DNA of 47,718 nt from Fimbriimonadia bacterium (GTDB lineage Bacteria; Armatimonadota; Fimbriimonadia; Fimbriimonadales; JABRVX01): contig JABRVX010000001.1 in NCBI GenBank assembly GCA_039961735.1, forward strand, positions 1 to 47,718, in the 5' to 3' direction. The notes under the pieces are model-generated. The model had not been told where the DNA came from and did not search any database. It saw nothing but the letters and a program-made list of their open reading frames with translations. The position numbers and the translations under genes were made by a program. The first letter of the stretch is position 1. Every line of letters starts with the position of its first letter. Below are positions 44,462-47,413 of the stretch, in pieces.

Positions 44462-46570
44462 CTACATCGAGCGCGCAAGGAACCGTTCCAGCATGGTGAA
44501 GATGTGCTCACGCATGCCTTCGATGCCGTGCTTCTTCCCCGGATAGAACATCGTCTCGAACTGCTTGCCGGCCTTCTGCAGCGCCTCGACCAGACGGACC
44601 GAGTTCTGAAAGTGCACGTTGTCGTCCGCCATCCCGTGCACTATAAGCATCGCGCCCTGCAGCTTATCCGCGTGAGCCTCCGGCCCGCTACGTGCATAGC
44701 CTTCGGGGTTCTGCGCAGGCGTCCGCATGAACTTCTCCGTGTACACGCTGTCGTACAACTCCCAGTGCGTCACCGAAGCCACGCACATGCACGCTGCGAA
44801 AACGTCTCCTCCCAACAGCGCACTCAAAGACGAGAGGTAGCCGCCATAGCTCCAGCCCCAGATGGCGATTCGCTTCGGGTCTACGAAGCCCAATGAGGCG
44901 AGGTACTTCGCCCCTTCGATCTGATCGTGCGCCTCCCAGCGCCCCAGGTCCATGTACGTGCACTTCGCGAACTCGGACCCTCGCCCACCGGAGCCGCGCC
45001 CGTCGCACAGGAAGCACACGTATCCCCTTTGCGCCAGGTACTGGCACAACCAGTCGCCCGTCCACTGATCCGTGCACACCTGCGAGCGCGGCCCGCCGTA
45101 GGTCGAGATGAGGGCAGGATACGTTCTGTCCTCTCGAAAGCCCTTGGGTAGCAGAATACGACCGTTGAGCTTCACCCCGTCGCTGGTCCGAAAGGACACG
45201 AACTCCCACTCCTGCAACCGGTAGCCTCTCAGCGTTTCGATGCGCGGCTCCACGAGCCTCGCGAGTTCCCGACCCCACGCGCTCCGGACCGTAACCGAGT
45301 GCGGGCTGTTGATGGTGCTGTGCATCAGCAGATAGGTTCGCGAGTCATCGGAGAACGAGACGGTGTTCCACCCATCCTCCTTGGTCAGTCGCTTGGCCTT
45401 GCCGCCGCTCAGCGGAACCGAGAAGAGGTTCATGTGCATTGGCGAGGGCGACTGAGCGGTGAAGTACACCAGGCCCTCGTCCTCATCCACTGCCTCTACT
45501 TTGGCTACGTCGAATTTGCCCTGCGTGATGGGCTGCCGACCACCATCTCGTAGGCTACAGAGCGAAACTTGCCTCCAGCCGGTCTCCTCTCCGATCCAGA
45601 GAAAGTGCTCGTTATCGCGCAGGAAGCGTAACTTGCCGGGGCTGTCGACCCATCGGTCATCGGCAGCGCTGAAGGCCACGCGACACCGTCCCGTCTTCGG
45701 GTTGCAGACCAGTACGTCGATTCGGTTCTGCAGCCGTGGCATGCGCTGTACGACGAGCTTCCCATCCTCAGTCCACTGCATATGGATCAGATAGCCGTCT
45801 TCTTCGTGCTCGGTGTCCATCCACCGCACCGACCCACCCTTCGCCGGGATCACTCCGATGCGAACGACCGGGTTCGGGTCGCCTGCCTTCGGATATCGCA
45901 TGCGCTCGTGCTTAGGGTGCTTCGGGGTGAAGTCCGTGAACTGAAACTCTGGCACCTTCCGTTCGTCAACCAAGAAGAAGGCGATCCACTTCCCATCGGG
46001 CGAGTAGCTCCAACCATCCACCTGCCCCAGCTCCTCCTCGTACACCCATCCGAAGCGACCCACGTACACTGAGGGTTTGGCGAGTTCGGTCAGCCGTGTC
46101 TCTTCACCGGTTGCCAGGTCCACCGACCACAGATCGTCGCCGCGCACAAATCCCACGCTCTTGCCGTCCGGCGAGAACTTACCGTTCCGCTGTGGCTTGC
46201 CCATAGCGCACAGGCGTCGAAGCGTCTGGCTCGAGGGCTCGTACAGGTAGTACACCCCGGGCATTGAGATGCGCGCGGGACCCTGCGAACACAGGAGCAG
46301 CAGCCTTTCGTCCGGCGACCACACAAAGTTGTCAATGCCCATCTGCCGCTTCGGCCGCACGCGCACCTTCTGCACGTCAATCAGCGGCTCGCGCTTGCCG
46401 TTCCCAGTGTCCAACTGCCACAGCGTGGTGCAGTCCCGCCCAGGCGCCGTGTGGATATAGCAAAGGGTTTTTCCATCCTTCATCCAGTGCGGATGCGTTG
46501 GGAGCGGGTGCTTGAACAGGTCCTTGGTGAAGCAGTCGTGGAGGGTGAAGCGTTTCGTTGAGCCGGTCAT
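44462..46570 (-). CDS. Prolyl-oligopeptidase/DPP-IV family serine peptidase (702 aa)
   Basis: An S9-type peptidase. The first ~450 residues form a beta-propeller with WD/TolB-like blades (FVWSPDERLLLLCSQGP, NGKFSPDGKSVGFVRGDDLW, GWSYSPDGKWIAFFLVDER). The alpha/beta-hydrolase domain follows: TYGGPRSQVCTDQWTGDW, CFLCDGRGSGGRGSEFAK, catalytic Ser in IAIWGWSYGGYLSS, Asp in LIVHGMADDNVHF, and His in YPGKKHGIEGMREH. All three residues of the triad are present. No signal peptide is visible, so it may be cytoplasmic. Start 46570 was chosen because the longer frame overlaps the divergent gene at 46676; its ribosome-binding site is weak. Confidence 0.92.
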   Translation of the reverse strand: MTGSTKRFTLHDCFTKDLFKHPLPTHPHWMKDGKTLCYIHTAPGRDCTTLWQLDTGNGKREPLIDVQKVRVRPKRQMGIDNFVWSPDERLLLLCSQGPARISMPGVYYLYEPSSQTLRRLCAMGKPQRNGKFSPDGKSVGFVRGDDLWSVDLATGEETRLTELAKPSVYVGRFGWVYEEELGQVDGWSYSPDGKWIAFFLVDERKVPEFQFTDFTPKHPKHERMRYPKAGDPNPVVRIGVIPAKGGSVRWMDTEHEEDGYLIHMQWTEDGKLVVQRMPRLQNRIDVLVCNPKTGRCRVAFSAADDRWVDSPGKLRFLRDNEHFLWIGEETGWRQVSLCSLRDGGRQPITQGKFDVAKVEAVDEDEGLVYFTAQSPSPMHMNLFSVPLSGGKAKRLTKEDGWNTVSFSDDSRTYLLMHSTINSPHSVTVRSAWGRELARLVEPRIETLRGYRLQEWEFVSFRTSDGVKLNGRILLPKGFREDRTYPALISTYGGPRSQVCTDQWTGDWLCQYLAQRGYVCFLCDGRGSGGRGSEFAKCTYMDLGRWEAHDQIEGAKYLASLGFVDPKRIAIWGWSYGGYLSSLSALLGGDVFAACMCVASVTHWELYDSVYTEKFMRTPAQNPEGYARSGPEAHADKLQGAMLIVHGMADDNVHFQNSVRLVEALQKAGKQFETMFYPGKKHGIEGMREHIFTMLERFLARSM

Positions 46571-46675
46571 CGAGAGAGTGTTCCGCAAAATCCGCTCTGC
46601 TCCTTCCGCGTTGGGCCGAAGGGAGGAATCCTCATCCCGTCGAATCTGTGCTGTACCTTCACGAGGCGGTGTGCT

Positions 46676-47413
46676 ATGGCAGAACCGATTCGACGCTCTG
46701 ACGTGGCGGAGAAGGACATCGAGGCCGGCATCTACTGGCTGATCGGCAGTCTGGTGGTCGCTCTCCTCGGATTCCTGTTCGGTCGGTACGGCGGCGGAGG
46801 TCCCGTGTCGACGGTGGGTTGGATCATCCTGGCTGTCACGCCGATCGGACTCATCGTCTCCGGCACGAAGTTCTATGCGGCGAAGAACGTGCCCGGGGTC
46901 CCAGTGTTGTGCCCCTATTGCCACTCGAAGACCTATTTCTTAGCCCCGCCGGCTGGCGACTTCACGTGTGATAACTGCCATCGCCGGGTCGCCGTGGAGG
47001 ACGGGAAGCCGTTGCGGGTGATAGAGGTCAAGTGCGGCTTCTGCGGCTCGCTCCAGCGGTTCTCGGAGCGCACCGAGGTTGCGCTGTGCGAAGAGTGCGA
47101 TCACGAAATCCCGCTGGCCTCGTCCGAGACCGGTCACATGAAACATCTGGCCAAGGGCATCGCACTGGAGGAGGACCCGCGGCCCTATGACCTCATCCTC
47201 GTCGCGCCGGGTCCGCAGGTGGAGCCGCTTATCGGCAGGCTGCAGCAGGTGCTTGCGCTGCCGAGAAACCAGGTAAAGGACATGCTGGTCAGCTTGCCCG
47301 TCACGCTGCTACACGGCATTCCGATGCGGAAGGCCAAAATGTTGCACGACGAGCTGGTGCGCATGGGCGCGGCGGTGGACATGAAGCCGCAGGGTGATGC
47401 GCCGAGGCGGTAG
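46676..47413 (+). CDS. Two-helix membrane protein with two zinc ribbons and an L7/L12-CTD-like tail (245 aa)
   Basis: Two membrane helices (about 18-36 and 46-64). Then two treble-clef-like cysteine sets: Cys79/82 with 98/101 (CPYC, CDNC) and Cys120/123 with 138/141 (CGFC, CEEC). The last ~75 residues (171-237) line up with the C-terminal domain of ribosomal protein L7/L12: YDLILVAPGPQVEPLIGRLQ with NQVKDMLVSLP and HGIPMRKAKMLHDELVRMGA, matching its FDVILKAAG..., VKD...P...G and LxxxGAxVxxK spacing. In L12 this domain recruits translation factors. What it binds here is unknown. ATG 46676 has AGGCGG upstream. It is divergent from the peptidase gene. Confidence 0.7.
   Translation: MAEPIRRSDVAEKDIEAGIYWLIGSLVVALLGFLFGRYGGGGPVSTVGWIILAVTPIGLIVSGTKFYAAKNVPGVPVLCPYCHSKTYFLAPPAGDFTCDNCHRRVAVEDGKPLRVIEVKCGFCGSLQRFSERTEVALCEECDHEIPLASSETGHMKHLAKGIALEEDPRPYDLILVAPGPQVEPLIGRLQQVLALPRNQVKDMLVSLPVTLLHGIPMRKAKMLHDELVRMGAAVDMKPQGDAPRR

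Follow-up and report, generated by a model that had tools for sequence, protein, structure and literature searches.

Near one end of the 47,718-nucleotide stretch of Fimbriimonadia DNA analysed here (the window) lies a gene for a membrane protein whose C-terminal tail is a true homologue of the C-terminal domain (CTD) of ribosomal protein L7/L12 (bL12); this domain assignment is secure. We suggest, with a probability of about 0.6, that the protein is a membrane-anchored cytosolic zinc-ribbon adaptor in which an L12-type docking domain has been repurposed. The open reading frame occupies positions 46676-47413 of the forward strand, begins with ATG and encodes 245 amino acids. Its parts, with the basis for each in brackets, are as follows:

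46663..46666, + strand: candidate ribosome-binding site GAGG, 9 nt 5' of the ATG (putative, from the sequence)
46676..47413, + strand: whole gene, coding for a protein of 245 amino acids with two transmembrane helices, two zinc ribbons and an L12-CTD-like domain (open reading frame; homologues found in 58 of the order's 61 sampled genomes)
46694..46885, + strand: transmembrane hairpin, helices at residues 7-38 and 43-70 (AlphaFold model, hydropathy, positive-inside bias)
46910..46978, + strand: zinc ribbon 1, C79-x2-C82 ... C98-x2-C101 (invariant cysteines and their spacing)
47033..47098, + strand: zinc ribbon 2, C120-x2-C123 ... C138-x2-C141 (invariant cysteines and their spacing)
47099..47185, + strand: linker of ~29 residues (lower model confidence, with block means of pLDDT 61-71 over residues 151-170)
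47186..47389, + strand: L7/L12-CTD-like domain, residues 171-238, beta-alpha-alpha-beta-alpha-beta (hhalign, PDB profile search, AlphaFold, Foldseek against 1ctf)
47219..47290, + strand: helices corresponding to L12 helices 4 and 5, residues 182-205, the GTPase-binding site in bL12 and rewritten here (column table, charge, model)

Taken alone, the window protein does not reach the cut-off of Pfam family PF00542 (Ribosomal_L12; 25.9 bits), scoring 13.1 bits (E 0.12) at full length and 16.2 bits (E 0.013) as an isolated tail, and the significance of the L12 match therefore derives from comparisons made at the level of the family. Members in 14 of the 36 genomes checked do pass this cut-off (for example L154 at 32.8 bits, L007 at 32.0 and L157 at 29.1). 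When the family tail was compared with 18 bL12 sequences of Armatimonadota using hhalign, a probability of 97.2 and an E value of 4.5e-11 were obtained over 68 columns without gaps, and the tail of the window protein (residues 171-238) aligns ungapped along the whole L7/L12 CTD. A search of all PDB sequences with the tail profile returned bL12 for every one of matches 1-17 (best E 1e-7). The family profile, when run against individual genomes, finds in most of them their own bL12 as the second match, over profile positions ~150-238; similarly, bL12 is the sole other match when the window protein is searched against its own genome (E 0.004). With a profile built from Armatimonadota bL12, the tail of the window protein obtains 19.4 bits and the highest of its scored shuffles 10.1; each of the 100 family tails outscores every one of the 4,604 shuffles that were scored. 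A quick tree separates the tails, as a single clade, from the bL12 set (56/56, support 1.0), the alignment being short enough that this split is the only meaningful feature of the tree.

The AlphaFold2 model of the 245-residue protein, built with 56 sequences, has a pLDDT of 91.9 and the helix and strand order expected for an L12 CTD; from this model an L12-type fold of the tail is predicted with high confidence. Foldseek placed L7/L12, or ribosome entries carrying L7/L12, at ranks 1-15 (E 1e-3), with an rmsd of 1.1 A to 1ctf and a TM-score of 0.91 by target. ClpS shares the general fold of the L7/L12 CTD, but it appears only at Foldseek rank 21, behind the L7/L12 entries and with an E value of 0.6, and it is absent from the sequence-profile matches; assignment to the ClpS fold was ruled out on the Foldseek ranking. 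Chance resemblance to L12 is likewise ruled out by the shuffles, the profile comparison and the fold search. The original prediction, that the tail aligns over its full length with the ribosomal L7/L12 CTD, is thus borne out by hhalign, the PDB profile search and Foldseek. Of the two checks proposed with it, the profile search upholds it through the family, the window tail alone remaining below the PF00542 threshold, and structure prediction does so through the superposition of the model on 1ctf; no result placed the tail in an unrelated fold or left it lacking an L12 match.

Outside the tail the protein has little in common with bL12. Its N-terminal two thirds consist of the membrane hairpin and the zinc ribbons, which stand in place of the N-terminal dimerisation/uL10-binding domain of bL12, and the hinge is also absent. 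The genome carries one normal bL12 gene, adjoining rplJ on contig C33, whereas the gene studied here lies outside the rplJ-rplL locus. Since the L12 N-terminal domain is missing, the GTPase site is lost (see below) and a separate bL12 is present, a second ribosomal copy of L12 or a paralogue fusion was ruled out. Across the family, the mean number of lysines plus arginines is 2.8 at the N-terminus and 2.4 after the second transmembrane helix, compared with 1.0 in the loop of the hairpin, and this excess on its flanks suggests that both ends of the protein are cytosolic. All eight ribbon cysteines (C79/C82/C98/C101 and C120/C123/C138/C141) are invariant among 56 aligned sequences, and their spacing is near-constant throughout the family, with two CxxC knuckles per ribbon, a pattern from which zinc binding by Cys4 ribbons is predicted. 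Two membrane helices and two Cys4 ribbons ahead of the tail had also been predicted originally, in agreement with the model and the conserved cysteines. The DmmA-like zinc ribbon (NF041259, PF22289) is among the best matches to the ribbons, although below threshold (19-30 bits for NF041259 against a cut-off of 60), and it is the ribbon part only that this family shares with the protein.

Homologues were found in 58 of 61 sampled genomes of the order Fimbriimonadales (Armatimonadota), with one full-length copy in each; the family is thus conserved across the order and is not peculiar to the genome of the window. A profile search of 291 Armatimonadota genomes added full-length members from four further families (f12, f13, f14 and f19, 37 genomes in all), and gave bL12-type matches alone, or nothing, in most of the remaining families. 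A scan of a larger genome collection used peptide patterns tuned to Fimbriimonadales and returned loci of the Fimbriimonadales type only. One of the records carrying such an Armatimonadota locus, JADZEW010000026.1 (L101), is titled "Methanoregulaceae archaeon", a name that looks wrong. No relatives were found among the plasmids and viral contigs searched, and a mobile or viral origin was ruled out on this ground. In Pfam and NCBIfam the window protein obtains sub-threshold matches only (zinc-ribbon families, PF00542, and TIGR00855 at 13.4 bits against a cut-off of 84.4), and no L12-like membrane protein turned up in the literature searched; these results accord with the original remark that no described protein is known to have this order of domains.

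In genus g25 (L042, L151 and L152) the gene stops after the second ribbon in several species, so that the tail is absent while the transmembrane and ribbon part is kept. These copies are alike in length and end point across three species and contain no remnant of the tail, which rules out sequencing error, and they stand beside the sigma factor and STN-protein genes that usually accompany the family (see below). The loss of the tail with retention of the rest indicates that the tail can be separated from the protein as a module and that the transmembrane and ribbon part serves some function by itself.

The GTPase-site residues of bL12, which we take from mutagenesis work to be K65, V66, I69, K70, R73, L80, E82 and K84 in E. 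coli numbering, were compared between the family and the 39 bL12 proteins of the same genomes. All 39 bL12 proteins have K/R at position 65, L/I at 66, I at 69, K/R at 70, R/K at 73, L at 80, E at 82 and K at 84. Among 74 family members, position 66 is E/D in 73, position 73 is Q in 70, position 80 is R in 73 and position 82 is Q in 70; positions 65 and 70 are variable, with K outside the four commonest residues at both (S, N, G and Q being the commonest at 70). Position 69 is I/V/L in all 74 and position 84 is K/R in 73, and the equivalents of I69 and K84 are the only ones of these positions that have been kept. Across the equivalents of helices 4 and 5 the family displays the motif IxxLQxMLALNRNQVK. 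Residue variants of their own occur at these positions in family f2 and in the lineages beyond Fimbriimonadales, and helix 5 of the latter retains E/D82 and L80. Helix 4 has a mean charge of +2.28 in bL12 and of -1.14 in the family, and in the other lineages the mean is -1.42; helix 4 of the window protein itself is neutral, that of E. coli bL12 +3. According to PMC6753160, IF2, EF-Tu, EF-G and RF3 bind to the bL12 CTD at a conserved site on helices 4 and 5 that is positively charged. This site is absent from the family. The substituted positions are themselves conserved, which fits adaptation to a new ligand and not a decaying domain. Given the L12 features that are retained (I69 and K84, and outside the order E/D82 and L80), weak or altered binding of GTPases by the tail may persist.

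These substitutions bear directly on the two readings offered in the original prediction, namely that a membrane-bound L12 domain tethers translation factors or that the domain has been reused for another partner. In the first, the tail would catch EF-G, EF-Tu, IF2 or a specialised GTPase and so concentrate translation at the membrane. The genuine homology and fold of the tail, the retention of K84 and I69, and the precedent of the membrane-bound, ribosome-associated E. coli proteins YqjD, ElaB and YgaM (PMC10502375) are in keeping with such a tether. It appears decidedly doubtful, however, since the equivalents of R73, K70, K65, V66, L80 and E82 have been replaced, helix 4 carries negative charge in place of the positive surface that bL12 presents at its GTPase site (PMC6753160), and a translation-factor gene was seen next to the family gene just once. 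This was elongation factor P beside a single copy (L067), an adjacency taken as chance. A further version, in which the re-specified helix-4/5 face recruits a particular GTPase or ribosome population and thus forms a second, membrane-based "stalk" in Armatimonadota, is highly improbable. The tether is accordingly disfavoured by the loss of the positive helix-4/5 surface, and reuse of the domain for another partner fits better.

The genes around the family offer other candidates for a partner. In 46 of 79 Fimbriimonadales loci, and usually in the largest family, f3, the gene is preceded by an ECF sigma factor gene and a gene for a single-pass membrane protein with an STN domain. The latter protein has a three-helix N-terminus predicted to be cytosolic, one transmembrane helix and a C-terminal secretin-N0/STN fold, and its fold matches include the signalling domain of the anti-sigma factor PupR and FecA. 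It (L066:5147-5899 and its equivalents, alignment A5) is likely to represent an undescribed FecR/PupR-like anti-sigma family of Fimbriimonadales. The family protein might then be the third component of an ECF sigma/transmembrane anti-sigma-like module, binding either the sigma factor or the STN protein's cytosolic portion and tuning sigma release. The recurrent gene order, the domain layout and fold matches of the STN protein, and the persistence of the cassette in g25, where the tail has been lost, all speak for such a role, and in family f3 a membrane signalling partner is our leading guess on account of these neighbours. As a general explanation it is nevertheless unlikely. This gene order was not found in the lineage to which the window belongs, in families f2 and f5 or in the inspected loci outside the order, although the family gene is conserved there, so a sigma role cannot be universal; moreover, the survival of the cassette in g25 is survival without the L12-like tail.

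Outside the order, a gene for a CPDC-type glutaredoxin lies directly downstream in 11 of 15 loci (for example L155:3880-4137, L158, L161 and L166), and this is the usual arrangement in two related lineages. Together with the eight invariant cysteines, it speaks for the idea of a redox- or zinc-responsive membrane protein, whose ribbons would act as thiol switches or as a zinc reservoir serviced by the glutaredoxin and whose tail would transmit their state. Such a neighbour suggests that the ribbons might be under thiol control, but a glutaredoxin gene adjoins the family gene in none of the 79 Fimbriimonadales loci, and structural zinc ribbons are common without a redox role, so that none need be invoked. 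We regard this explanation as quite improbable.

A membrane pyrophosphatase gene lies downstream in about half of the Fimbriimonadales loci. In the genome of the window it is situated elsewhere, and the pyrophosphatase was set aside as a partner for that reason. The pyrophosphatase adjoining the family gene at L053:6752-10222 (forward strand) has an insertion of ~300 residues that contains a weak L12-CTD-like segment (residues ~616-672; 18.4 bits with PF00542, 15.4 bits with the family tail profile) in a presumed external loop; no such segment was found in the other pyrophosphatases scanned. The window copy has no sigma, STN-protein or glutaredoxin gene upstream, and the contig ends ~300 bp downstream of it. 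On that upstream side, and divergent from it, is a large open reading frame (44462-46924, reverse strand), assigned by eye to the S9 (dipeptidyl peptidase IV-like) peptidases, the true start of which is probably near 46570 rather than at the GTG at 46924. As the neighbours differ from lineage to lineage, any partner they point to is a lineage-specific hint and not proof.

Other membrane proteins are comparable in part. In the same phylum, 2TM-domain proteins (L200 and L201, with matches to PF13239 and partial matches to PF00542) also carry an L12-derived C-terminal element, but this consists of the helix-4/5 hairpin only, and zinc ribbons are lacking. L198, L199, L200:553-1206 and L201:510-1199, all from Armatimonadota, end in such a hairpin (e.g., IEAIKRLREETGSTLKDAKDAVEMYERIHPGSI), which apparently keeps more of the factor-binding residues than the family studied here. 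YqjD, ElaB and YgaM of E. coli are likewise small and membrane-anchored, and YqjD binds ribosomes; they differ in being anchored by a C-terminal tail, and an L12 domain or zinc ribbon is not mentioned in the available portion of PMC10502375.

On the ribosome, the L7/L12-CTD fold serves as a tethered "fishing" domain. For the adaptor proposed here, whose role and topology we infer, the two-helix hairpin would anchor the protein in the inner membrane, its two termini facing the cytosol, and two rigid Cys4 ribbons followed by a flexible linker would present the L7/L12-CTD-derived domain. Because its helix-4/helix-5 face has been rewritten and the positive GTPase patch is gone, this domain would most likely capture a different cytosolic protein and hold it at the membrane. 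The protein is a new combination of known domain types, not a new kind of system. Describing it assigns an identity to a conserved gene, in a little-studied phylum, for which Pfam and NCBIfam have no family. With the L7/L12 CTD moved to the membrane, its binding face rewritten and its fold kept, the family would offer a clean example in nature of an interaction domain of the ribosome switching partner.
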